This document shows positions 4,758 to 25,880 of a DNA stretch of 39,878 bases, piece after piece. The translations under genes were made by a program, and so were the position numbers. Origin of the DNA: Spartobacteria bacterium (GTDB taxonomy: Bacteria > Verrucomicrobiota > Verrucomicrobiia > Chthoniobacterales > Chthoniobacteraceae); contig JANXZI010000044.1 of assembly GCA_025355595.1 (NCBI GenBank), positions 1 to 39,878 on the forward strand, in the 5' to 3' direction. The stretch's first letter is position 1, and each line of letters begins with the position of its first letter. Below the pieces are notes generated by a model, which worked only from the letters and a program-made list of their open reading frames with translations, was not told where the DNA came from and made no database searches.

Positions 4758-5375
4758 ATGAAAAAGTCCCTCACAGTGCTGGGTCTTGTGCTTCACCTTT
4801 TCGGCGCGCACGTCCGCGGCGAGTCTCCGCCGGGAGACCGGAGCGTGCCCGTCGCACCGCCGGTGAAGACTGCGGCGAGCCACCTCCTGGCGCCCGATGA
4901 ACTGATCGAGATCAAGGTTTTCCAAGAACCCGAGCTGACGACCTCGACGAGGATTCCGAGTGATGGCCGGATTAATTTTCCGCTCATCGGTGACGTGGCC
5001 ATCGCAGGGAAAAGCGTGCAGCAGGCCACCCAGATGATCCAAGACCGCCTCGGCGCGCGATTCCTCGTGAACCCGCAGGTGAGCATCGCGATCATCGAGC
5101 CGGCGAAGCGGCTTTTCACCGTGCTCGGACAGGTGCAGCGGCCGGGCACGTATCGGTTCCCGGACCGGCAGTCGCTGGATCTCATGCAGGTCATCGGCAT
5201 CGCCGGCGGCTACACCCGGTTGGCGGACGCGGGGAAGATCACGGTCAAGCGCCATGTCGGCGGGAAAGAGACGGTCTTTCGCATCAATGGAAAGCAACTC
5301 GCGACGGATCAAAAATCGAGCCCGTTCATGGTCGCGGACGGCGACCTCATCAGCATCGGGGAACGTCTTTTCTGA
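4758..5375 (+). CDS. wza: Wza-type polysaccharide export protein (Poly_export + SLBB)
   Basis: 205 residues with an N-terminal signal peptide (MKKSLTVLGLVLHLFGAHVRG; no lipobox cysteine visible, so probably not a lipoprotein, unlike E. coli Wza). Residues about 42-115 form the Poly_export domain (LLAPDELIEIKVF, DGRINFPLIGDV) and about 118-200 an SLBB domain (FTVLGQVQRPGTYRFP). At this length it is shorter than E. coli Wza and lacks the second SLBB and C-terminal amphipathic helix that makes the outer-membrane pore. The upstream beta-barrel may supply the outer-membrane passage instead (inference). It is two bases from the wzc-like gene. Confidence 0.85.
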   Translation: MKKSLTVLGLVLHLFGAHVRGESPPGDRSVPVAPPVKTAASHLLAPDELIEIKVFQEPELTTSTRIPSDGRINFPLIGDVAIAGKSVQQATQMIQDRLGARFLVNPQVSIAIIEPAKRLFTVLGQVQRPGTYRFPDRQSLDLMQVIGIAGGYTRLADAGKITVKRHVGGKETVFRINGKQLATDQKSSPFMVADGDLISIGERLF

Positions 5376-9890: not shown

Positions 9891-10991
9891 ATGCGCCTGC
9901 TCCTTTTCAATCTCGTCACCGATGTGAAGCACCCGATCCTCGGCTTCACCACGCAATGGATTCGCGCCCTCGCCGCGCGCGTCGAGAGCATCGACGTCAT
10001 CACCATGCAAGCCGGCGAGATCGCCGTGCCGGACAATGTGCGGGTCCATTCCGTCGGCAAGGAACGCGGCTACTCCGAGCCCCGCCGCGCGCTGGAATTT
10101 TACCGCCTGCTTTTCCGCATCCTCCGCGAGCGGCGCATCGATGGCTGCTTCTCGCACATGATCCACGTTTTCTCCGCGCTCGCTGGGCCGGTGCTGCGCG
10201 CACGCCGCATCCCGCTCGTGACGTGGTTTGCGCATCCCACCCTCTCGCGGTCGCTGAAGGTCGCGCACTTCTTTTCCAACCGCATGGTGACCAGCCTGCC
10301 GAACGCCTATCCGTATCACAAAAACAAGCTCGCCGTGATCGGCCAGGGGATCGACACCACGCTCTTCGCGCCCGCGGCGTCCGTGGCGGCGGACGACGGG
10401 ATGATCCTCTGCGTGGGCCGCATTTCGCCGGTGAAAAATCACGCCACCCTGCTGCGCGCGATGGCGCTGCTGCCCGCACGTATTCGCCTCGTGATTCTCG
10501 GCGCTGCGGCGAGCGCGGAAGACCAAGCGTGCGCAGCCGGGCTGCGCCAGCTCGCACCGGAACTCGGGCTGGAAGCGCGGGTCGTTTTTGCGCCGCCAGT
10601 GCCGCCCGACGAACTGCCGGCGCACTACGCCCGGTGCGCGGCGCATGTGAATCTCACGCCCGCTGGATTCGGCGACAAAGTCGCGTGGGAAGCGATGAGC
10701 TGCGGACGCCCGTGTCTCGTCGCAAACGAGGACTTCCGCGAGACGCTCGGCGAACAGCAGGACGCGCTTCTTTTCCGGGACGAAAACGATCTCGCCGCGA
10801 AGCTGTCCGCCCTGCTCGGCAAGACCGCTGCCGAGCGGGACGCCATCGGCCTTTATCTCCGGTCGCAGGTCGAGCGCCTGCACTCGCTGCCGCGCCTGGC
10901 GGAACGCATTTTGGAACAAATCGCTTTGGTGCGCGCCGGACGGACGCAAGCGCAGCCGGTCGCCAGGAGGGAGGGGGAACGGCCATGTTAA
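9891..10991 (+). CDS. GT4-like glycosyltransferase with atypical donor-site motif (EPS glycosyltransferase 3)
   Basis: 366 residues in the GT-B fold pattern: an N-terminal acceptor half, then ILCVGRISPVKNHATLL and LVILGAAA typical of the donor half. At the place of the EX7E motif it reads GFGDKVAWEAMSCG: the second glutamate is there, but the position eight residues before it is glycine rather than glutamate. Variants with DKVxxEAMxxG occur in some GT4 enzymes, so it may be active. No clear Shine-Dalgarno sequence is visible before the ATG. The end overlaps the methyltransferase start by 7 bases. Confidence 0.8.
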   Translation: MRLLLFNLVTDVKHPILGFTTQWIRALAARVESIDVITMQAGEIAVPDNVRVHSVGKERGYSEPRRALEFYRLLFRILRERRIDGCFSHMIHVFSALAGPVLRARRIPLVTWFAHPTLSRSLKVAHFFSNRMVTSLPNAYPYHKNKLAVIGQGIDTTLFAPAASVAADDGMILCVGRISPVKNHATLLRAMALLPARIRLVILGAAASAEDQACAAGLRQLAPELGLEARVVFAPPVPPDELPAHYARCAAHVNLTPAGFGDKVAWEAMSCGRPCLVANEDFRETLGEQQDALLFRDENDLAAKLSALLGKTAAERDAIGLYLRSQVERLHSLPRLAERILEQIALVRAGRTQAQPVARREGERPC

Positions 10992-11623
10992 GAGGCGGCA
11001 ATCCCGAAAAGCTTTTTGCCGAGGGTCTCGCTGAAACCGTCCGCGATGCGCAGGACATTCTCGATGTCGGCACATCGCAGCGCTACGCGAAGGAACTGCG
11101 TCCGTATGAAGGCTTGTTCAAGGGCAAGAATTACATGGCCGCAGGCTATCAGCCGAGTTCGGCCTACGGGGCCTACAACTGCGATTGCCATCAGGACGTT
11201 CAAAAGATGACGTTCGCGGACACCTCGTTCGACGCGGTTCTCTGCATCGAAGTGCTCGAACACGTGGCTGATCCCTTTGCCACCGCCCGGGAACTTTTGC
11301 GAGTCTTGCGGCCCGCTGGCCGACTGCTTCTGACCACGCCGTTTTTGTACGGCTATCATGGAAAGCAAGCGGATGCCCACTCTCCCAGCCACGAAAGTTA
11401 TCCGGATTATTGGCGGTTCACGCATCAGGGCCTGGAGCACCTTTTTTCTGGATTTCGGAATGTGCGGGTCAGTCCGCTGTACGGCCCTGTCGAATTTCGT
11501 CTGGACCAATTTCTGAGGGAACGCGTGATCGCATTTCCGCTGTTCCGCAAGCTGGTGGACTGGGTGGACCGTCCGAAGCGCGGACGCGCGACTTCGCGGC
11601 ATCTCCTGCTGGCCGTGAAGTAA
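10985..11623 (+). CDS. Class I SAM-dependent methyltransferase of the EPS locus
   Basis: 212 residues. The start at 10985 is fixed by the strong AGGAGGGAGGGGG just upstream; the 555-residue ORF is a longer reading through the previous gene. A SAM-binding motif I (DILDVGTSQ), an acidic-loop region, FDAVLCIEVLEHVADP and GRLLLTTPFLYGYHG are typical of Methyltransf_11-type enzymes. It probably O-methylates a sugar of the repeat unit or caps the chain, as methyltransferases in Wzx/Wzy loci do, but the acceptor cannot be read from the sequence. The stop is 7 bases before the flippase start. Confidence 0.82.
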   Translation: MLRGGNPEKLFAEGLAETVRDAQDILDVGTSQRYAKELRPYEGLFKGKNYMAAGYQPSSAYGAYNCDCHQDVQKMTFADTSFDAVLCIEVLEHVADPFATARELLRVLRPAGRLLLTTPFLYGYHGKQADAHSPSHESYPDYWRFTHQGLEHLFSGFRNVRVSPLYGPVEFRLDQFLRERVIAFPLFRKLVDWVDRPKRGRATSRHLLLAVK

Positions 11624-11630
11624 CACGAGA

Positions 11631-13151
11631 ATGATTGCCTCCCAAAAAATCATCTCCGCGCTGCACGCGAATTGGTGGCTGAATCTCGCCGGCCTGCTGT
11701 TTTCTTTCGGTGCTTCCGTCGTGCTCGTGCGCGCGATGCCGGCCGGACTTTTCGCCGAATATGGCGCGGTCATCGCGATGATCGGACTCGCGACCCTCGT
11801 CTTCGAGGTCGGGGCGAACAGCGGGCTCACGCGCTATTTGAAAGAAGCGGGCGACCAGCACGCGCGCGGCACTTTCTACGTCCGGATGCAGCGCCGACGC
11901 TGGCTGGCAGCGCTCGCGTGCGGCGTGGCGCTCGCCGCTTTCGGGCCGATGTATGCGCGCTCCACGCAGTTCGCGAACCTCGCGGCGGAGCCGTGGCTCT
12001 TCGCACTCATCGCCGCAATCGTCGCCGCGACTCTCACGCGGCTGCTCGCCCATTACGGACTGCTCGCACTTTTCGAGACGAAGGTCGCGCTGCTTCTTCA
12101 GCAGGGATTTCTCGTCGGGCGCTCCGTGATTCTCGCGCTGATCGCCCTCGCTGGCGGCGGACTTTTTGCCCTCGTCGGCGCAATGGTCGCGATCGGCTGC
12201 ATCGAAGCGCTGATCGTCCACCACCGGCTCTGGAAGCTGATCGGCGCAGAGCGTGCGCCGGTGCCCGCGGCCTTCGTCAATCGCGCGCAGAAGTTTGGCC
12301 TGCTCACCATTTTCGACAAGGCGTGCGCGATGCTCGGCAGCGGTTCGGTGCTGCTCCTCGTGCTCGCGCCGAATCATACCGCGACGACCATCGCCTTCCT
12401 CGCCCTCGCGGTCGATCTCGTCGGAAAACTCGTGGGCCTCACGGTCATGCCGATGGGCAATCTCGTCGCGCCGTATCTCAGCCACACGGGCGATGATCCC
12501 GCCGCGCAGGGTCTCGCGGTCGCGCGCGTCGTGAAGCTTTCCAGCCTGCTCTACAGCCTCAGCGTCGGCGCGGGTTTGCTCGTGCTGCCACCGTTCATCA
12601 CCGCGGTGTATGGCGCGCGCTACAGCGGCTCGATTCCGCTCGCGCTCGTGCTGCTCGTGCCGACGGCATTTGAAAACTGGATCCGCGGCTCCTGCTCGCC
12701 CGCGCTCCTGCGCAACGGCCGCTATCGCGCCCTCGCGAAAGTGAACATCGCGCAGGCCGTCGTCACCCTCGCCGCGCTCGCGCTGGTCTGGCGTCAGCCG
12801 GTGGAAATGGTTCTCGCGGTCGTCGGCGGAGCGCGGTGCTGCGTCGCGGCCTTCAATCTCGTCCTGCTCCGCGAACTCCTTCCCGCGCGCACCTACCGCG
12901 TGCCGGCGCTCAGTGCGGCGATCAGCCTGCTGAGTTGCGCCGCAGCTTTTGCGTGGAGTTCGCTGCTGCCTCTGCCGCCGCTGGCGCGGGCCGTCGCCGC
13001 GATGCTGTCGTTCGGTCTTCTTTTTTACATCGGGGTCCGCTGCCTCGTTTTCCGCGACGCAGACACGCTGCACCTCGCGCGCCGGATCGTCGGCACGCGC
13101 CTCGGATTTCTCCACCGGCTCCTCCCCGCGCCACCGCAGCCGAATACATGA
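11631..13151 (+). CDS. wzx: Wzx-type lipid-linked oligosaccharide flippase
   Basis: 506 residues, almost entirely hydrophobic helices with short charged loops, about 12-14 membrane segments. The N terminus (NWWLNLAGLLFSFGASVVLVRAMPAGLFAEYG) is the typical opening of the polysaccharide biosynthesis (Polysacc_synt/MATE-like) family. Its role would be to flip the finished undecaprenyl-diphosphate repeat unit across the inner membrane for Wzy. The ends overlap the polymerase start by ATGA. Wzx proteins diverge strongly, so specificity cannot be inferred. Confidence 0.82.
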   Translation: MIASQKIISALHANWWLNLAGLLFSFGASVVLVRAMPAGLFAEYGAVIAMIGLATLVFEVGANSGLTRYLKEAGDQHARGTFYVRMQRRRWLAALACGVALAAFGPMYARSTQFANLAAEPWLFALIAAIVAATLTRLLAHYGLLALFETKVALLLQQGFLVGRSVILALIALAGGGLFALVGAMVAIGCIEALIVHHRLWKLIGAERAPVPAAFVNRAQKFGLLTIFDKACAMLGSGSVLLLVLAPNHTATTIAFLALAVDLVGKLVGLTVMPMGNLVAPYLSHTGDDPAAQGLAVARVVKLSSLLYSLSVGAGLLVLPPFITAVYGARYSGSIPLALVLLVPTAFENWIRGSCSPALLRNGRYRALAKVNIAQAVVTLAALALVWRQPVEMVLAVVGGARCCVAAFNLVLLRELLPARTYRVPALSAAISLLSCAAAFAWSSLLPLPPLARAVAAMLSFGLLFYIGVRCLVFRDADTLHLARRIVGTRLGFLHRLLPAPPQPNT

Positions 13152-17528: not shown

Positions 17529-18748
17529 ACACCGTGAAAATCGCCCACGTCACCACCATTGATGCCTCGCTGCATTCGCTCCTGCTGAATCAAATGCAGA
17601 GCTTGCAGGCGGCGGGTTACGATGTCGCCGGCATCTCCGCCGCCGGGGCCGCCGTGCCGCTGATCGAAGCCGGCGGCGTGCGGCATCTGGCCGTCCCGAT
17701 GAGCCGCAATCTGTCGCCGCTGGCCGATCTTGTGTCGCTGTGGCGGCTGTATCGCACGATGCGGCGCGAGCGCTTCACGATCGTCCACACCCACACGCCG
17801 AAGGCCGGCCTCCTCGGCCAGCTCGCGGCCCGGCTCGCGGGCGTGCCGGTCGTCGTGAACACGATTCACGGTTTCTATTTTCACGAGCACATGCGCCCGC
17901 TCGCGCGGCGGTTTTACATTTTCATGGAAAGGATCGCGGCGTTTTGCTCCGACCTCATCCTCTCGCAGAACGCCGAGGACATGGAGACGGCGGTGCGCGA
18001 GGGCATTTGCCGCCGGGAAAAAATCGCGTTGCTCGGCAATGGGATCGATCTTTCCGGATTCAACGCAGACGCGGTTTCCGCGGACGACGCATTGCGCTGC
18101 CGCGAGAAACTCCACATCCCCGCGGATGCCCCAGTCGTGGGTTTCGTCGGCCGCCTCGCGGCGCGGCGGAAAGGCTTCCTCGATTTTCTCGCCGCCGCGA
18201 AACGCATCGCCGCGCTGCGGCCCGACGTGCGCTTTCTCATCGCGGGCGATACCGATCACGGAAAGCCGGACGCAGTCGAGCCCTCCGTCGCTGAGGACTA
18301 TGGCATCGCGGACCGGTGCGTTTTCGTCGGGCAACTCCCGAACACAGCGTTACCCCGGCTTTACAAGGTGATGAGCGTGCTCGTCCTGCCATCCCTTTTC
18401 GAGGGCGTGCCGCGGGTGGTGATGGAGGCTTCCGCGATGGGCGTGCCATCCGTCGTCAGCGATGTGAAAGGCAACCGCGAAGCCGTGGATCAGGATGGCA
18501 ACGGACTGCGCGTGCCGTTCGGCGAGGTGCCCGCGCTCACCGCGGCGATCCTGCGCATCCTGACCGAACGCGACACCGCGCAACGCATGAGCATCGAGGC
18601 CGTGCGGATCGCGGCCGGGCGCTTCGATGAGCGGCTGGTCTTTGAGAAAGTGAAGCAGGAATATGCGCGGCTGCTCCTTGCCAAAGGTCTTCCGCTGCCC
18701 ACGCCGCGCACCAAGGAAAAGGAGGAACTGCAGCCATGCACCGCCTGA
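17525..18748 (+). CDS. GT4-family glycosyltransferase (EPS glycosyltransferase 5)
   Basis: 407 residues starting at an ATGA overlap with asnB. The N-terminal half contains IAHVTTIDASLHSLLLNQ, VHTHTPKAGLLGQLAARLAG and NTIHGFYFHEH, the pattern of enzymes near the PglA/GalNAc-transferase type of GT4. The donor half has VGFVGRLAARRKGFLDFL and the EX7E motif FEGVPRVVMEASAMG. Because it lies directly before the pglC-like gene, it is the best candidate for adding the second sugar to the bacillosamine-like first sugar, by analogy with pglA next to pglC; this is inference. It overlaps pglC by 13 bases. Confidence 0.86.
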   Translation: MNTVKIAHVTTIDASLHSLLLNQMQSLQAAGYDVAGISAAGAAVPLIEAGGVRHLAVPMSRNLSPLADLVSLWRLYRTMRRERFTIVHTHTPKAGLLGQLAARLAGVPVVVNTIHGFYFHEHMRPLARRFYIFMERIAAFCSDLILSQNAEDMETAVREGICRREKIALLGNGIDLSGFNADAVSADDALRCREKLHIPADAPVVGFVGRLAARRKGFLDFLAAAKRIAALRPDVRFLIAGDTDHGKPDAVEPSVAEDYGIADRCVFVGQLPNTALPRLYKVMSVLVLPSLFEGVPRVVMEASAMGVPSVVSDVKGNREAVDQDGNGLRVPFGEVPALTAAILRILTERDTAQRMSIEAVRIAAGRFDERLVFEKVKQEYARLLLAKGLPLPTPRTKEKEELQPCTA

Positions 18749-19371
18749 TCGGAAAACGGCTCTTCGACCTCGCGCTGGTCATTCCCGCGCTGCTCCTGCT
18801 CGCGCCGGTATTTTTCGTCGTCGCGCTCCTCGTCCGCTGCAAGCTCGGCTCGCCCGTCCTTTTCCGCCAAGAGCGTCCGGGGCTGCGGGGAAAGCCGTTT
18901 GTGATGCTCAAATTCCGCACCATGACCGATGCTCGCGGCACCGACGGCGAGTTGCTGCCGGATGAAGATCGCGCGCACCCATTCGGCCAGATGCTGCGCC
19001 GCACGAGCCTCGATGAACTGCCCGAACTGCTCAACGTGCTCAAGGGCGAGATGAGTCTCGTCGGCCCGCGCCCGCTGCTGATGCGCTATCTTCCGCGCTA
19101 TTCGCCGGAACAGATGCGGCGACACGAGACGCTCCCCGGCATTACCGGCCTGGCGCAGGTGAGCGGGCGCAACAACCTTCCGTGGGAGGAAAAGTTCGCG
19201 CTCGATGTCCAGTACGTGGACCGATGCTCACTCTGGCTGGATATCAGAATCCTGCTGCTGACCGTGCGCGCAGTGACCGGTGCGGAGGGCGTGAGCGCAG
19301 GATCCCATTTTAGTTCGCCGGAATTTATGGGCACAGCCGCCCGCGACCGCGACGGAAAGGAGAGCGCATGA
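18736..19371 (+). CDS. pglC: PglC-type phosphoglycosyl transferase (initiating sugar-1-P transferase)
   Basis: 211 residues, the size of the minimal monotopic phosphoglycosyl transferases and not of polytopic WcaJ/WbaP. An N-terminal re-entrant membrane helix (LFDLALVIPALLLLAPVFFVV), then FRQERPGLRGKPF, KFRTM, the catalytic Asp93-Glu94 in SLDELPELLNVLKGEMSLVGPRP, and PGITGLAQVSGRN. It transfers a UDP-sugar phosphate to undecaprenyl phosphate, the first step of the repeat unit. Neighbouring pglD, pglE and pglF genes suggest the sugar is N,N'-diacetylbacillosamine. The stop overlaps pglD (ATGA). Confidence 0.88.
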   Translation: MHRLIGKRLFDLALVIPALLLLAPVFFVVALLVRCKLGSPVLFRQERPGLRGKPFVMLKFRTMTDARGTDGELLPDEDRAHPFGQMLRRTSLDELPELLNVLKGEMSLVGPRPLLMRYLPRYSPEQMRRHETLPGITGLAQVSGRNNLPWEEKFALDVQYVDRCSLWLDIRILLLTVRAVTGAEGVSAGSHFSSPEFMGTAARDRDGKESA

Positions 19372-20015
19372 ACGCAACTAACTGCATGTATCTATATGGT
19401 GCCGGTGGCCATTCCAAGGTCATCCTCGATATCCTGCAAAGCTTCGGAATACGCGTGAAGGGCGTCTTTGATGATAATCCCGCCGATGCCAAACTGCGCA
19501 TTGTGAAGGTTGCCGATGGTATTCGGCTGCTCGGGGAAGGATTTCCGGAATTAGATGCACCACTGATCATATCTGTGGGAAACAATGCCAGACGGGCTGA
19601 ATTGGCATCCTTGATCAAGGCGAACTATGGGACAGCCATTCACCGCAGCGCCATTATCGCCTCCACGGCCACCATCGGTGTCGGAACCGTGATCCTGCAT
19701 GGCGCGATCGTGCAGGCCGATGCGCAGATCGGGGCACACGTTCTGATTAATACGGCTGCAAGCATTGATCATGACAATATCATCGGTGACTATGCGCATG
19801 TCTCGCCGCACGCGACGTTATGCGGCCATGTCGAGGTAGGCGAGGGCACACATATCGGCGCCGGCGCAGTGGTCATCCAGAAGGTCCGCATCGGGCGTTG
19901 GTGTACCGTCGGTGCCGGGGCGGTCGTGCTTCGGGACATACCCGACTTCTCGACAGCCGTGGGCAATCCAGCACGGGTGATCAAAGTAGGCAAGAAGGAG
20001 GCAGCCACGTCATGA
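19368..20015 (+). CDS. pglD: PglD/NeuD-type UDP-amino-sugar N-acetyltransferase
   Basis: 215 residues. An N-terminal Rossmann-like part (LYGAGGHSKVILDIL) is followed by a left-handed beta-helix of hexapeptide repeats (ASTATIGVGTVILHGAIVQ onward) and a C-terminal cap (VGNPARVIKVG). His135 in SIDHDN corresponds to the catalytic histidine of this family. It would acetylate the 4-amino group of the UDP-sugar with acetyl-CoA, giving UDP-diNAcBac. Codon use changes here: ATA, CTA/TTA and GGT codons appear that are scarce in the genes before it, suggesting a different origin. It overlaps the next gene by ATGA. Confidence 0.85.
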   Translation: MNATNCMYLYGAGGHSKVILDILQSFGIRVKGVFDDNPADAKLRIVKVADGIRLLGEGFPELDAPLIISVGNNARRAELASLIKANYGTAIHRSAIIASTATIGVGTVILHGAIVQADAQIGAHVLINTAASIDHDNIIGDYAHVSPHATLCGHVEVGEGTHIGAGAVVIQKVRIGRWCTVGAGAVVLRDIPDFSTAVGNPARVIKVGKKEAATS

Positions 20016-22762
20016 AACATTCCCTGCCCAACGGAAATCCAGATTCCCAGTCTGATGGAATGAGCATGGGTGAGTGCTACGACATAGCGATCGTCGGGTC
20101 GGGCATTTCCTGCGCTTACACCTTGATCCACTACATCGCGCTGCTGGAGAAGCAGCCGCCCGGAAAGTCCATCAAGGTAATTGTCTTTGAGAAGTCCGGT
20201 GAATTTTGGAATGGCATCCCCTATGGCAGTCGCTCAGGCCGCTATTCGTTGCTGATATCCTCACTGAAGGAGTTTCTGCCTCAGAACGAGGAGCGCGAGG
20301 CTTTCGCAGCGTGGCTGAGTAAGAACCGCGACTGGGTGTTTGACAGATTCAAGCAGGGAGATGGAGAACTGGCGACGAAGTGGCTTCGAAGCAATGAAAA
20401 GGCGATGGCCGACGGTCTCTGGGACCACCTGTTCATTCCACGATATACCTTCGGATTATACCTCCAGGAACGCCTCACGGACCTTCTGCAACGGGCCGCC
20501 GCGAGGCGCCTTCTTGAGTGCAGCATGGTGTCGGCAAATGTGGTGGATATCGAGCGCGTGAATCACCTTCACCGGATCCATTTCGTGAGTGCGGCGGCGG
20601 AAAGTGCCGTGCTGGTGAACAAGGTGATCTTGGGGATTGGCAGTCCGCCGAATGGCGTGCTGGAGCAGCCAAAGGAAGACGGTGCTGACGAGAGCGGGTG
20701 CCTGATCGGCGACATGTATGAGCCATCGGTGGAGTTCAATATCCGGCGGATTACGGAGGCATTAAAGCAGTCCAAAGGTGATCAAGGCCAGAGCAAGCAA
20801 GTGTTGATCGTCGGAGCCAACGCCAGCGCTCTGGAGGCACTTTATTGGCTGAATAACTCCAGGGAGTTGCACGGCTTAATCAGCAAGTTCTCCATCCTTT
20901 CCTCGAAGGCGGCATTCCCTCATCGCATCAGCCGCGAAGTGACACTGGCCAACTACTCCCCAAAGCATCTTGGAGCACTGGTGAAAGCCGGAGCGCACAC
21001 CGCAAAGCAGATCCTCGACGCGATTCGGCAGGATGTGGCGCATGCCACCGCGCAAAACATCAACGTCGCCGACCTGTTTGGTGATATTTCGAGGGGGATG
21101 ATCGAGGCGCTGAATCAACTGGAGGTCGTCGAGCAGAAGAAGTTTGTCGCGAAGTATGGGGTGGAGATCGGCAGATTGCAGAGACGTGCCGGTTCAGATT
21201 ACCTGGAGGTGGTGGATGCCTTGGCTGCGCAAGGCCGGATCGAGATGCTCAAAGGCAGGTGTGTCCGGTGCGTGCCGCTTGGCGATAGTGATCTTGGATG
21301 TGAATTTATGACCGGCAAAAGTGGGAAGGAGATGATTCTCGCGGGTCCGTTTGCGGTCGTCATCAGTTGTGCCGGTTTCCAAGATGTGACGAGGTCGTCC
21401 TCCACCTTGATGCGAAACCTGATCGGGCGAAAGATTTGCGTGCCGAACGCGTCCAAGCGCGGATTTCGGATCAGCGAGAGCTTTGAAACAAGCAAGGGCT
21501 GCTATTTGATTGGCCCCTTGGTCGCGGGCAACTTAGCGGGCAAGCTGAGGATTTGGCACGCGGAGAGTTGCACTCGGATTATTGCCATGTCCAGGCAGTT
21601 GGCAGCGGCATTGATGCCCAAGGAAATCCGCAGCCCGAGGAGGCTTCCAGTGCTCATCGGTCACATCATGAAAGTGCTGGGCACCGCGGACCATGATGAA
21701 TGGATGGATGTGCTCGCCAGCACCGCGCAGCACGACTTCTATCACCTGCCACAATATCATCGTGTCGAAGAGGCGCGCGGCGAGGGAGTGGCGCAGCTTT
21801 TCGCCTATCGCGAAGGCGACTGCGTGATCGCGCTTCCGCTCATGCTCCGACCGGTGGACGATGCAGTGCCCGATGGATGGAAGGACGCGACATCGGTCTA
21901 TGGATACGGTGGCGCGGTTGCATCGCACCAAGAGGTGCCGGAAGCGGTCGTGAGAAACTTTCGGGCCGCACTGAAGGAGGCGCTCATGGAGCGCCGGGTG
22001 GTCGCGGCCTTTTCGCGGCTTCACCCGCTGCTTCCGCAGAGCGACCTGTTCGCAGGTCTGGGCGAATGCCGGCTTCACGGGCAGGCCGTCTCGGTGGATC
22101 TCACGCTGCCGCCGGAGGATCAACGGGCGCGCTACCGCAACGCCTACAAGACGCGCCTCAACAAGCTCCAGCGCGAGGGTGTCGTCTGCGTCCACGACGC
22201 AACGAAACGTCATCTGGCGGAGTTCATCAGCATCTACCGCGAAACGATGCGGCGCGTGAACGCGAACGACTCCTATTTTTTTGGCGACGATTATTTCACG
22301 CGGCTCGCCGAGGAACTCGGAGACAAGCTGCAATTGTTCGTGGTCCGGGTGAGTGAAACCGTGGCCGCCGCGGGCCTGTTCACCCTTTGCGATGGCATCA
22401 TCCAGTTTCACCTGGGTGGGACGCGGGACAGCTTCCTCGGCGTCTCGCCCATGCCATTGCTGATCGACACCGTCCGGCTGTGGGGCAACGAAATGGCTGC
22501 GCGGGTGCTGCATCTCGGCGGCGGTGTCGGATCCAAGAACGACACCCTGTGGCATTTCAAGGCGGGCTTTTCCGATCGCCGGCACGATTTTGCCACATGG
22601 CGCTGGATCGTCGTTCCGGAGGTCTATCGCGGACTGTGCGAGGAACGGCGGCGGCTGGATGACTTCAACAACAGCGCGGCGGTGTCGGCGGAGTTTTTTC
22701 CCGCTTACCGATGCCCGGCGGCACCGCGTCTCGCGGTCCCCAGCGAAGTCGCGAACACATGA
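20012..22762 (+). CDS. Fusion protein: FAD/NAD(P)-binding oxidoreductase-like domain + FemAB/BioF2-like GNAT acyltransferase
   Basis: 916 residues from the ATGA overlap with pglD. Residues about 22-540 look like a flavoprotein of the FAD/NAD(P)-binding type (PF13454-like): dinucleotide-binding fold DIAIVGSGISCAY at about 24-36, a second nucleotide fold QVLIVGANASALEAL at about 263-277, and VVISCAGFQD further on. Residues about 553-900 match the GNAT fold of FemAB/BioF2-like acyltransferases (PF13480-like): YKTRLNKLQREG, QFHLGGTRDSFLG, LHLGGGVGSKNDTLWHFKAGFS. I know of no standard enzyme with this layout. Context suggests modification of the amino sugar or its acyl/aminoacyl substituent. The first half is visibly lower in GC than the second, and a start signal sits at the junction (see separate entry). 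Confidence 0.7.
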   Translation: MKHSLPNGNPDSQSDGMSMGECYDIAIVGSGISCAYTLIHYIALLEKQPPGKSIKVIVFEKSGEFWNGIPYGSRSGRYSLLISSLKEFLPQNEEREAFAAWLSKNRDWVFDRFKQGDGELATKWLRSNEKAMADGLWDHLFIPRYTFGLYLQERLTDLLQRAAARRLLECSMVSANVVDIERVNHLHRIHFVSAAAESAVLVNKVILGIGSPPNGVLEQPKEDGADESGCLIGDMYEPSVEFNIRRITEALKQSKGDQGQSKQVLIVGANASALEALYWLNNSRELHGLISKFSILSSKAAFPHRISREVTLANYSPKHLGALVKAGAHTAKQILDAIRQDVAHATAQNINVADLFGDISRGMIEALNQLEVVEQKKFVAKYGVEIGRLQRRAGSDYLEVVDALAAQGRIEMLKGRCVRCVPLGDSDLGCEFMTGKSGKEMILAGPFAVVISCAGFQDVTRSSSTLMRNLIGRKICVPNASKRGFRISESFETSKGCYLIGPLVAGNLAGKLRIWHAESCTRIIAMSRQLAAALMPKEIRSPRRLPVLIGHIMKVLGTADHDEWMDVLASTAQHDFYHLPQYHRVEEARGEGVAQLFAYREGDCVIALPLMLRPVDDAVPDGWKDATSVYGYGGAVASHQEVPEAVVRNFRAALKEALMERRVVAAFSRLHPLLPQSDLFAGLGECRLHGQAVSVDLTLPPEDQRARYRNAYKTRLNKLQREGVVCVHDATKRHLAEFISIYRETMRRVNANDSYFFGDDYFTRLAEELGDKLQLFVVRVSETVAAAGLFTLCDGIIQFHLGGTRDSFLGVSPMPLLIDTVRLWGNEMAARVLHLGGGVGSKNDTLWHFKAGFSDRRHDFATWRWIVVPEVYRGLCEERRRLDDFNNSAAVSAEFFPAYRCPAAPRLAVPSEVANT
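21638..21652 (+). promoter_or_regulatory. In-frame internal Shine-Dalgarno and GTG at the fusion junction
   Basis: AGGAGG at 21638-21643, a 6-base spacer, then GTG at 21650-21652, all in the frame of the 916-residue fusion. Starting there would give a stand-alone 370-residue FemAB/GNAT protein; a second in-frame ATG follows at 21668. The AGGAGG is read as Arg-Arg with codons otherwise scarce here. It may be a relic of a once separate gene or a working second start. Confidence 0.5.
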
Positions 22763-23919
22763 CTATGGACAAACCACCCCGAATTTACCTCTCTCCGCCG
22801 CACATGGGCGCCCTGGAGCTGGCGTTAGTGAAGGAAGCATTCGCGACGAACTGGATCGCGCCGCTCGGGCCGCACGTCGATGGCTTTGAGCGCGAACTGG
22901 CGGCTTATGTCGGCGTGCCGCACGCGGCGGCGCTCTCGTCGGGCACGGCGGCGCTGCACCTCGCGTTGCGCTTAGTCGGCCTGCAGCGTGGTGACGAAGT
23001 GCTGTGCTCGACCTTCACCTTCAGCGCCAGCGCCAACCCGATCGCCTATGAAGGCGCGACGCCCGTTTTCATAGATTCGGAAAATACGAGTTGGAACATG
23101 GACCCGGGGCTCCTCGCCGAGGAACTCGACTCTTGCGCCGCCCTCGGACGCCTTCCCCGCGCGGTCATCGTCGTCGATCTTTACGGCCAAAGCGCAGACT
23201 ACGCACCAATCCTCGATGCCTGCGCCAAGTATGCCGTGCCGGTCATCCAGGATTCCGCGGAAGCGCTGGGAGCGACTTATCGCGGTGCGGCTGTCGGACA
23301 GCAGGGACACTTCGCGGTGTTCTCATTTAATGGCAATAAGATCATCACCACCTCTGGCGGAGGGATGCTTGTCGCAAAAGATGCCGCCTTGATCGAGCGC
23401 GCACGCTTCCTCGCCACCCAGGCGCGCGATCCCGCGCCTCATTACCAGCACTCGGCGATTGGTTTTAATTATCGCATGAGTAACGTCCTGGCCGGCATCG
23501 GGCGCGGACAGCTCTCCGTGCTGCCGCAGCGAATCGCCGCGCGCCGGACTAACTTCCAATCCTATCGGGCCGCACTCGGCGACGTGCCCGGCATTAGTTT
23601 CATGCCGATCCGCCCCGACAGTGAGCCTAACTATTGGCTGACCTGCATCATGATCGATCCGGAAAAATTCGGCGCCTCGCGAGAGGATGTGCGTCTGGCA
23701 CTCGAAGCCCACCATATCGAATCGCGGCCGCTCTGGAAACCGCTCCATTTGCAGCCGGTCTTCGCCAGCAGCCGCGTGCGCGGCGGCGCTTTATCCGAAG
23801 GGCTGTTCGAGCGCGGCCTTTGCCTGCCCAGCGGCTCGAGCCTTTCACCCGATGATCTGAACCGGATCTGCGCACTAATCCTCGAAACGCCGCGAAGCCT
23901 GGCGGCCCCCGACCTATGA
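22759..23919 (+). CDS. pglE: PglE-type UDP-4-keto-sugar aminotransferase (DegT/DnrJ/EryC1/StrS family)
   Basis: 386 residues from the ATGA overlap with the fusion gene (MTMDKPPRIYLSPPHMG). Typical fold type I, PLP-dependent sugar aminotransferase: ALSSGTAALHLALRL near 71-85, DLYGQSADY, the aspartate in QDSAEALGATY, and the Schiff-base lysine K194 in SFNGNKIITTSGGGM, a motif typical of PglE/LegC-type enzymes. It would transfer an amino group from glutamate to the UDP-4-keto-6-deoxy sugar made by PglF. The order pglD-fusion-pglE-pglF supports a bacillosamine-type pathway. It overlaps pglF by ATGA. Confidence 0.88.
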   Translation: MTMDKPPRIYLSPPHMGALELALVKEAFATNWIAPLGPHVDGFERELAAYVGVPHAAALSSGTAALHLALRLVGLQRGDEVLCSTFTFSASANPIAYEGATPVFIDSENTSWNMDPGLLAEELDSCAALGRLPRAVIVVDLYGQSADYAPILDACAKYAVPVIQDSAEALGATYRGAAVGQQGHFAVFSFNGNKIITTSGGGMLVAKDAALIERARFLATQARDPAPHYQHSAIGFNYRMSNVLAGIGRGQLSVLPQRIAARRTNFQSYRAALGDVPGISFMPIRPDSEPNYWLTCIMIDPEKFGASREDVRLALEAHHIESRPLWKPLHLQPVFASSRVRGGALSEGLFERGLCLPSGSSLSPDDLNRICALILETPRSLAAPDL

Positions 23920-25880
23920 TCCGCGCGCTCGGACGTCCCATCCTCCAGCGAATCATGCGGGACCGGCCGCTCCGCCTGATTGCTCTTACGTTCACCTATG
24001 CACTCGTCATCGGGCTGAGCGTCATCTTCGCGTATCTGCTGCGGTTCGATTTTGATATTCCCGCGTGGATCCGCCCGAGCGTCCTCTCCGTCTGCCTGAT
24101 CACGGTGTCCGTGCATCTCCTGTGCATGTTTTGCTTCCATCAGTTCGACGGGCTGCTCAGCTATTTCAGTACGCCGGATTTGCGACGGCTCATGCTCGCA
24201 TGCACGACGGCGGTGTTCGCGCTCGGTGCGATCCGATTAATTTTTGGGACCGGATTCGCGCCGCCGAAGGGCGTCCTTCTCATGCACTATCTTCTCAGCA
24301 CGCTGGCGCTCAGCGGACTCCGCCTGAGCTTCCGGCACATCCGGCAGATTGCCTTCGCAAATGGTGGGCGAACGGTCGTCAAGCCGCGCCGTGTGGCCAT
24401 CGTTGGCGCGGGCGATTGCGGCGCGGCCCTGGCCAAGGACCTTCTGGCAAAGCCGTGGCTCGCCCTGTTACCCGTCGCATTCTTCGACGACCACCGCAGC
24501 GCCCGTTGCAGCATCCACGGCATCGCCATCGCAGGCATCCCGGAGCACATCGCCGAATTCAAAGAAAAGCTGAACCTCGACGAGGTCATCATCGCCATGC
24601 CGTCCGCGCCCGCGATGCGCATCCGCGAAATCCTGATCCTCACACGCGACGCCGGCCTTCCATGCCGGACGGTGCCTTCGCTGGATCAACTGGCGACCGG
24701 CCGCGTGAGCGTGAGCAATTTGCGGCCCGTCGAGATTCACGACCTGCTGGGCCGTGCCCCGGTGGAAATCAAAGGTGACGCCGTGCGGGAAATCATCGAA
24801 GGCCACACCGTCATGGTCACCGGCGCCGGCGGGAGCATCGGCAGCGAACTGTGTCGCCAGATTCTCACCTTCGGACCGGCCGCACTGATCCTTGTCGAGC
24901 GTTCGGAGCCGCAGCTTTTTGTCATCGAGCAGGAGCTACTGGGCCAGAAAAACGCCGCCACATTGCTTCCGGTCGTCGGCGATGTCACACAGCGCAACCA
25001 AATGCTGGAAGTTTTCCGCCGCTTCCGACCGCACGTCATTTTCCACGCGGCGGCCCACAAGCATGTGCCCCTGATGGAACTCCAACCCGGGGAAGCGATC
25101 CGCAACAATGTCTTTGGGACTGCACTGCTCGCCGACCTCGCCATCGAACACGCCGTGGAGCGATTCGTCTTTGTCTCTACGGACAAGGCCGTGAACCCAA
25201 CCAATGTGATGGGCGCAACTAAGCGGCTCGCAGAAATGTACATCCAGTCGCTCGCGACGCGGTCGTCACGCACCAAGTTCATGGCCGTGCGCTTCGGCAA
25301 TGTGCTCGGCTCATCCGGGAGCGTCGTGCCCACCTTCACACAGCAAATCGCGGCTGGCGGGCCGGTGACCGTGACCCATGCCGAAGTCACCCGCTATTTC
25401 ATGACGATTCCGGAAGCCGTCTCTCTGGTCCTCCAGAGTTCCGCCTTCGGCAAGGGTGGCGACATTTTCGTCCTTGATATGGGCAAGCCGGTGCGAATTC
25501 TCGACCTCGCACTCCAGATGATCACACTTAGCGGCCTCGTCCCGCACAAGGATATCGAGATCCAGGTCACCGGGCTCCGTCCCGGCGAGAAACTCTACGA
25601 GGAACTCAGCCACGGCGGTGAAAGTGTCAGTGCGACGGCGCACCCAAAAATCGCACGGCTGCTCTCAACCCCGATCCATCACCGTTTCGCCGATGCCTTC
25701 CTGATGGAACTGTACCGCGCGCTAAAGGAAGGCCCATCGGACTCAGCCAGCCTCAAAGCACTGCTGACAACAATGCTGCCCGAATACACTCCATTTGTAT
25801 CCACGCCACCCGACAGTTCGGTTCCCCATGCGCATCCCAGCGCTCCGCCTGACTGTATTCGCAGCCTTGATCTCGGATAG
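23916..25880 (+). CDS. pglF: PglF/WbpM-type membrane UDP-GlcNAc 4,6-dehydratase
   Basis: 654 residues, full length for the membrane-bound class. Four N-terminal transmembrane helices (about 20-140), a Rossmann-like CoA-binding-type domain (about 155-275, VAIVGAGDCGAALA), then the SDR domain: VTGAGGSIGSEL at about 301-312 and FVSTDKAVNPTNVMGATK. Thr422, Met432 and Lys436 have the same spacing as the Thr-Met-Lys triad described for PglF, where Met replaces the usual SDR tyrosine. It would convert UDP-GlcNAc to the 4-keto-6-deoxy intermediate. It is the last EPS gene; no intrinsic terminator is obvious after it. The terminal 50 residues are low-complexity and poorly conserved in style. Confidence 0.88.
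   Translation: MIRALGRPILQRIMRDRPLRLIALTFTYALVIGLSVIFAYLLRFDFDIPAWIRPSVLSVCLITVSVHLLCMFCFHQFDGLLSYFSTPDLRRLMLACTTAVFALGAIRLIFGTGFAPPKGVLLMHYLLSTLALSGLRLSFRHIRQIAFANGGRTVVKPRRVAIVGAGDCGAALAKDLLAKPWLALLPVAFFDDHRSARCSIHGIAIAGIPEHIAEFKEKLNLDEVIIAMPSAPAMRIREILILTRDAGLPCRTVPSLDQLATGRVSVSNLRPVEIHDLLGRAPVEIKGDAVREIIEGHTVMVTGAGGSIGSELCRQILTFGPAALILVERSEPQLFVIEQELLGQKNAATLLPVVGDVTQRNQMLEVFRRFRPHVIFHAAAHKHVPLMELQPGEAIRNNVFGTALLADLAIEHAVERFVFVSTDKAVNPTNVMGATKRLAEMYIQSLATRSSRTKFMAVRFGNVLGSSGSVVPTFTQQIAAGGPVTVTHAEVTRYFMTIPEAVSLVLQSSAFGKGGDIFVLDMGKPVRILDLALQMITLSGLVPHKDIEIQVTGLRPGEKLYEELSHGGESVSATAHPKIARLLSTPIHHRFADAFLMELYRALKEGPSDSASLKALLTTMLPEYTPFVSTPPDSSVPHAHPSAPPDCIRSLDLG

Follow-up and report, generated by a model that had tools for sequence, protein, structure and literature searches.

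Within a 39,878-nucleotide stretch of contig JANXZI010000044.1 of a Spartobacteria bacterium (assembly GCA_025355595.1; hereafter the window), a single open reading frame (ORF) of 916 amino acids at 20012–22762, with no internal stop, joins a flavoprotein resembling N-hydroxylating monooxygenases to a FemABX-like tandem-GNAT transferase. Like the domains, motifs, and neighbouring Pgl genes described here, this fusion lies on the forward strand, and it belongs to an exopolysaccharide locus that opens with Wza at 4758. Its neighbours are a PglC-type phosphoglycosyl transferase (18736–19371; PF02397), a PglD-type sugar N-acetyltransferase (19368–20015; NCBIfam TIGR03570, 215 bits against a cut-off of 160.8, invariant histidine aligned), a PglE/LegC-type aminotransferase (22759–23919; PF01041; TIGR04181, 353 bits), and a PglF-type membrane 4,6-dehydratase (23916–25880; PF02719 and PF13727). 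Across 18736–25880, PF02719, PF01041, TIGR03570, and PF02397 all scored above their cut-offs, while the best aminotransferase and dehydratase equivalogs scored under theirs. With the PglF, PglE, PglD, and PglC types all encoded, the locus is of the bacillosamine (Pgl-type) exopolysaccharide kind claimed in an earlier reading of the window from its letters alone (hereafter the original prediction). The coordinates also agree with the position given there, with pglD on one side, pglE on the other, and an ATGA overlap at each junction: the TGA of PglD (20013–20015) overlaps the ATG of the fusion at 20012, and the TGA of the fusion (22760–22762) overlaps an ATG at 22759 that shares its reading frame with the ATG of PglE at 22765.

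The two-domain architecture is borne out by Pfam, a complete PF13454 flavoprotein and a FemABX-like transferase being contained in the one ORF. PF13454 (NAD_binding_9) matches residues 26–211 (E 4.2e-17, 63 bits against a cut-off of 21.8) and PF13480 (Acetyltransf_6) matches residues 707–838 (E 1.5e-7, 32 bits against 22); when the halves were scanned one by one, as the original prediction had proposed, PF13454 was found in the first and PF13480 in the second, with slightly higher scores. The flavoprotein domain, a PF13454 subfamily, covers residues 22–539 (20075–21628) according to Pfam, end-to-end alignment, AlphaFold2 (AF2) modelling, and Foldseek, and the N-terminal half can be aligned over its entire length, about 490 aa, with stand-alone PF13454 proteins. 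A profile-profile comparison of the family with 11 stand-alone PF13454 members gave 99.9% (E 8e-36). Five motifs have residues invariant in all 19 family members: the FAD (flavin adenine dinucleotide)-binding motif GSGISCA (residues 29–35, 20096–20116; G29, G31, I32), the family-specific EFWNGIPYGSRSG (residues 64–76, 20201–20239; F65, G68, Y71, G72, R74, S75, G76), the NAD(P) (nicotinamide adenine dinucleotide (phosphate))-binding motif GANASALE (residues 268–275, 20813–20836; G268, N270, A271, S272, E275), IGRLQRRAG (residues 386–394, 21167–21193; I386, G387, Q390, R391, A393, G394), and WHAESC, or WHxEHC (residues 515–520, 21554–21571; W515, H516, E518, C520). The invariant patterns include GxGI, GxxYGxRSG, GxNASxxE, QRxAG, and WHxExC. 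Measured against the textbook FAD and NADPH motifs of class-B N-hydroxylating monooxygenases, GSGIS(C/T) and GANASALE deviate, although the whole flavoprotein family keeps them.

After a low-confidence linker (residues 540–549, 21629–21658; predicted local distance difference test (pLDDT) below 50 in AF2), the FemABX-like tandem-GNAT domain occupies residues 553–910 (21668–22741), as indicated by PF13480, a FemX profile match, and Foldseek matches to Sba18/Sbb17 and FemX. The FemAB profile matches FemX at 6e-20, and Lys850 (22559–22561), which is invariant in the FemAB alignments, aligns within the FemX segment DSLYVFKHVF as the counterpart of Lys305, a residue with a role in FemX catalysis (PMC12945691). 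The isolated C-terminal half scored 14.3 bits with PF02388 (FemAB), below the gathering score of 24. Membership in the XrtA/PEP-CTERM FemAB family (TIGR03019) was rejected, the fusion scoring 25.5 bits against an equivalog cut-off of 260.

The genome of the window (792 contigs) carries a single copy of the fusion. The genome searches covered samples of genomes, and no second full-length fusion was found among 57 relatives, 40 family-level genomes, or 213 order-level genomes, nor a further one in the sample of the phylum of the window. A contig scan with the whole fusion as query returned FemAB relatives only, and relatives of the flavoprotein half were found neither in plasmids nor in viral contigs. 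A fragment at the start of contig C246 of G020 (L030:3–287), which is 42% identical to residues 429–503 of the window flavoprotein and lies at a contig end, is possibly a second copy of the flavoprotein family within the taxonomic family to which the window genome belongs. The idea that the fusion is a singleton, which held within the 213 order-level genomes and the phylum sample, was overturned in Bacteroidota. Among 297 genomes around a Winogradskyella genome, G890 carries a full-length fusion that is 30% identical across residues 22–900, has no stop, and lies on a 4.13-Mb contig; among 251 family-level genomes around G890, full-length fusions occur in 12 genomes including G890, and the flavoprotein is present as a separate gene in six more. 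The full-length Bacteroidota homologues are 27–32% identical to the window fusion. The search for other proteins with both domains that the original prediction had called for therefore yields 12 Bacteroidota genomes, and the fusion is a recurrent, conserved architecture across two phyla.

These homologues bear directly on whether the window protein is genuinely one chain, or whether two ATGA-coupled genes were merged by a small indel, natural or in assembly, into proteins that function apart. Several features of the junction fit an accidental join: an in-frame ATG (residue 553; 21668–21671) lies where orthologous stand-alone FemABs begin and forms an ATGA with a +1-frame TGA at 21669, a Shine-Dalgarno-like AGGAGG stands 6 nt ahead of a GTG at 21650 (AGGAGG-CTTCCA-GTG, 21638–21652), the neighbouring junctions are also ATGA overlaps, and the fusion, from a 792-contig assembly, is seen in no same-family genome. 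However, 12 other genomes have the two domains fused in this order, no methionine stands at the junction in the fused examples inspected, and codon likelihoods lend no support to a +1 frame ahead of the ATG. Given the full-length homologues in the 12 Bacteroidota genomes, the fusion is not regarded as an assembly accident, and an accidental join is considered very improbable. Nor do the codon likelihoods favour a frameshift or stop concealed at the junction, the sequencing or assembly error against which the original prediction had cautioned, and the homologues are fused as well. FemAB may nevertheless also be translated separately, at least in part, by internal initiation, since the in-frame ATG coincides with the native FemAB start and AGGAGG precedes GTG 21650.

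Structure prediction, also suggested by the original prediction, gave a two-dinucleotide-domain fold for the first half and a tandem GNAT for the second. Two AF2 models were built: one covered the N-terminal half, using ordinary PF13454 relatives (pLDDT 73.7), and the other covered the whole protein, using the family alignment (pLDDT 86.3, predicted template modelling score (pTM) 0.64, linker 540–549 disordered). N-hydroxylating monooxygenases were the top PDB matches of both models in Foldseek (prob 1.00, E 1e-14 to 1e-12); the first model best matched SidA, DesB, PvdA, and FzmM, and the second putrescine N-hydroxylase (7us3, 1.8e-14). The best 44 PDB matches of the full-length model were exclusively N-hydroxylating monooxygenases (putrescine N-hydroxylase, DesB, KtzI, SidA, and PvdA) or FemABX enzymes. 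When the PDB was searched with the wider PF13454 profile, FzmM, an aspartate N-hydroxylase, likewise came first (3e-8). For the C-terminal half, the fold matches are Sba18/Sbb17 bound to streptothrisamine (TMt 0.79) and FemX, in a range of 0.68–0.79. A phmmer search of the PDB with the single fusion sequence gave chance-level matches only.

On this basis, the protein is tentatively read, with slightly less than even confidence, as a bifunctional enzyme of a bacillosamine-type amino sugar that would N-hydroxylate the 4-amine made by PglE and then acylate or aminoacylate it. Several observations weigh against this assignment. The Foldseek template modelling (TM)-scores to N-hydroxylating monooxygenases are moderate (about 0.5–0.68 by target) at 9–14% identity; PF13434 (Lys/Orn oxygenase) gave no Pfam match on the fusion at E 0.1; the FAD motif has another residue in place of its third glycine; and the family-specific flavoprotein profile has no significant match among PDB sequences, so that the case for an N-hydroxylase is one of fold and distant homology. 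The flavoprotein and the FemAB domain are moreover each found without the other, and therefore need not share one substrate. Finally, an AMP (adenosine monophosphate)-binding enzyme and a carrier-like ORF in some Bacteroidota loci would speak for a carrier-bound donor rather than an aminoacyl-tRNA.

The flavoprotein might instead be another FAD/NAD(P) oxidoreductase whose target is not nitrogen but a sugar carbon, or else the acyl or aminoacyl moiety that FemAB or PglD carries. PF13454 is broad and mostly uncharacterised, thioredoxin reductases and Baeyer-Villiger enzymes also match the N-terminal model in Foldseek, and in BD-12 synthesis a glycine-oxidase-type FAD enzyme acts after Fem-like glycylation. 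These other folds rank lower, however, and N-hydroxylases stand above other class-B flavoproteins with two different models; the SAxE stretch within the NAD(P) motif also presumably resembles its counterpart in ornithine and lysine N-hydroxylases, which we take as a lead only. This alternative is held to be rather unlikely.

The phylogenies of the two halves tell different histories. In the FemAB tree, flavoprotein-fused domains stand at three well-separated places, with supported branches forcing at least four label changes, and the window domain is nested among the unfused or otherwise fused FemABs of its relatives (support 98/89). The flavoprotein tree places all 19 members of the family in one clade outside the ordinary PF13454 proteins (100/100) on a long branch, with the two large fused Bacteroidota groups as sisters, though their FemABs differ. 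Because sister flavoprotein groups bear different FemABs, the trees indicate that FemAB domains have been exchanged within the Bacteroidota fusions. The placements in both trees likewise indicate that the window fusion arose independently of the Bacteroidota ones or that its FemAB was replaced; either way, the same flavoprotein-FemAB coupling appears to have been selected more than once.

Among relatives of the window genome, the FemAB half recurs at 55–61% identity in several order-level genomes, where it is placed in a conserved cassette, PglC-(ATP-grasp)-FemAB-PglE-PglF. It is fused to a PglE-type aminotransferase in G055 and G048 and to a PylC-like ATP-grasp protein in G028 (L020:2699–4852). 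The FemAB-PglE fusions (L018:852–3119 and L021:9607–11877) come from two genera that belong to a different family within the order, and that of L018 has no internal methionine at the PglE start. The cassette setting and the fusions with PglE and ATP-grasp proteins thus place FemAB at the amino-sugar step and show that it has recombined with a number of partners. L019 and L022–L025 likewise have PylC-like ATP-grasp genes in the vicinity of FemAB, and sequence-similar relatives occur in several Bacteroidota loci. In G020, a flavoprotein of an unrelated type (Pyr_redox/Lys-Orn-oxygenase; L019:5784–7109) lies immediately upstream of PglC-FemAB-PglE and is preceded by an ATP-grasp gene. An ATP-grasp orthologue as a substitute for the flavoprotein was considered for the window genome and discarded, the only match being at 26% and on another contig.

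The flavoprotein keeps different company. Of the 19 loci with the flavoprotein, whether fused or free-standing, 15 have a pglD-type gene immediately upstream at a distance of -20 to +5 bp, and the window order PglC-PglD-fusion is found again in several Bacteroidota loci (e.g., L068, L101–L104). In G1296, PglD, flavoprotein, and FemAB form a single Pfam-confirmed ORF of 1100 residues (L105:8100–11399). The PglDs of these loci fall into two subtypes and retain the invariant histidine. By gene neighbourhood and phylogeny, the flavoprotein is thus part of a distinct subfamily tied foremost to PglD rather than FemAB. It could accordingly be proposed that flavoprotein and PglD are the working pair, coupling N-hydroxylation or some other oxidation to the acetylation of a UDP (uridine diphosphate)-4-amino sugar, that FemAB acts on another sugar or a later step, and that the fusion serves co-expression or channelling. 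The flavoprotein is indeed found beside PglD more steadily than it is linked to FemAB; in L106 and L109 it is a separate gene accompanied by PglD, with FemAB nowhere in view; PglD and a PF13454-subfamily flavoprotein are both missing from the majority of the closest FemAB cassettes; and some loci contain PglC and PglD twice each. However, the fusion of FemAB to the flavoprotein at three places of its tree, and to PglE elsewhere, argues that flavoprotein and FemAB act on the same amino-sugar branch, and a separate flavoprotein-PglD pair is judged quite unlikely.

The Bacteroidota loci show further variation. In G1088 and G1153 the product is a flavoprotein-FemAB-FemAB chain about 1235 residues long (L098:7621–11328 and L099:8464–12156), in which the second FemAB belongs to the type joined directly to the flavoprotein in L101–L104. 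Three to six tandem PF13480-type genes lie downstream of the fusion in L101 (14822–19658), L102 (1619–8373), and L104 (2828–7641). An AMP-binding enzyme is encoded near the fusion in L095 (13402–15126, Pfam-checked), L096 (5904–7649), and L099 (4678–6416), adjoining a carrier-protein-like ORF of about 80 residues with a DGW-S motif in L096 and L099; these two genes may supply a carrier-bound acyl group. In L106, a formyltransferase gene (11529–12290) directly adjoins PglD and the stand-alone flavoprotein, and the pairing of a formyltransferase with an N-hydroxylase is known in siderophore pathways. In the window, the guanine plus cytosine (G+C) content is 57% for pglD and 56% for the flavoprotein part (19368–21649) against 61–67% in the remaining operon genes, and this lower G+C suggests that pglD and the flavoprotein part came in together, possibly imported as a pair. 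Elsewhere in the window, a long ORF at 9956–11623 probably represents two genes, a glycosyltransferase-like ORF (9891–10991) and a methyltransferase from about 10988.

Under the favoured reading of N-hydroxylation followed by (amino)acylation, the UDP sugar made by PglF would receive its 4-amino group from PglE, and the N-terminal half, dependent on FAD and NAD(P)H, would turn an amine, most likely that 4-amino group, into a hydroxylamine. The C-terminal half would then acylate the hydroxylamine or amine, using aminoacyl-tRNA as the source of an aminoacyl group or transferring some other acyl group, with Lys850 playing the part of FemX Lys305. The FemAB half might work alongside, or in place of, the acetyltransferase PglD encoded immediately upstream, before PglC puts the modified sugar on the lipid carrier. 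The oxidise-then-acylate or -aminoacylate order of the original prediction stands as the most sensible reading in view of the Foldseek matches to N-hydroxylating monooxygenases and aminoacyl-tRNA-dependent FemABX enzymes, whereas the substrate, the N-hydroxylation chemistry, the acyl donor, and the sequence of steps are what we infer from sequences and models. The precedents of VlmH-VlmA and Orf11, compared below, support it.

As a broader and more doubtful possibility, at least two phyla may make surface polysaccharides with N-hydroxylated bacillosamine, as a hydroxamate or O-aminoacyl-hydroxylamine, by means of a nucleotide-sugar, PglD-coupled N-hydroxylase fused to FemABX. If so, the sugar could chelate metal or act as a cross-linking or rearranging group. 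Should the favoured reading hold, an oxidation step would be added to the best-studied bacterial trideoxy-amino-sugar pathway. The hydroxylate-then-acylate logic of siderophores and azoxy antibiotics would then be at work in a surface polysaccharide, with PglD, flavoprotein, FemAB, and ATP-grasp forming a tailoring set that swaps partners in one operon position. It would also give a function to a PF13454 flavoprotein clade with none assigned in the libraries searched, and would predict a new sugar in cultivable Bacteroidota. Literature searches for N-hydroxy amino sugars in polysaccharides gave nothing relevant.

In comparison with known systems, the ingredients, an N-hydroxylase-like flavoprotein, a FemABX transferase, and the bacillosamine pathway, are of known kinds; their combination is real and recurrent, and the sugar chemistry is possibly new. 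In the papers and family libraries searched, no description of the architecture was found, in line with the statement of the original prediction that no such enzyme had been described. A close parallel is valanimycin biosynthesis, in which a flavin monooxygenase yields isobutylhydroxylamine that is seryl-esterified by the FemABX-like VlmA with Ser-tRNA (PMC11705231, PMC12945691). VlmH/VlmR and VlmA thus share with the proposed function of the fusion a flavin N-hydroxylase followed by FemABX-like GNAT aminoacyl transfer from aminoacyl-tRNA, but VlmH and VlmA are separate proteins, VlmH is two-component and not described as PF13454, and the substrate is isobutylamine rather than an amino sugar, in a small-antibiotic pathway rather than a polysaccharide locus. 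Orf11 of BD-12 biosynthesis glycylates an amino-sugar intermediate using Gly-tRNA. Orf11 and the streptothricin-type Sba18/Sbb17 resemble the C-terminal half as FemABX-like, aminoacyl-tRNA-dependent enzymes with amino-sugar-containing acceptors and are its best fold matches, whereas they belong to antibiotic pathways, are not fused to an N-hydroxylase-like flavoprotein, and share only about 18% identity. SidA, PvdA, DesB, KtzI, putrescine N-hydroxylase, and FzmM have the two-dinucleotide-domain fold of the N-terminal half, but the class-B N-hydroxylases and FzmM differ in the FAD motif, serve siderophore or N-N-bond pathways, and lack a FemAB fusion. Siderophore hydroxamates are formed by an N-hydroxylase followed by acyl transfer, and FrbG works on a cytidine monophosphate (CMP)-bound amine (PMC7347517). 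HfsK and the XrtA/PEP-CTERM FemAB are, like the fusion, FemAB-like or GNAT acyltransferases linked to exopolysaccharides (PMC5362036), but are not fused to a flavoprotein. The Campylobacter PglF/PglE/PglD/PglC pathway to UDP-N,N'-diacetylbacillosamine uses the same four gene types that flank the window fusion, although the classical pathway has neither a flavoprotein nor a FemAB step. In Neisseria, the ATP-grasp protein PglB2 gives a glyceramido sugar, in which the 4-amine of bacillosamine bears a different acyl group; its system involves other enzyme classes and no flavoprotein, but ATP-grasp genes hold the neighbouring slot in the related FemAB cassettes.

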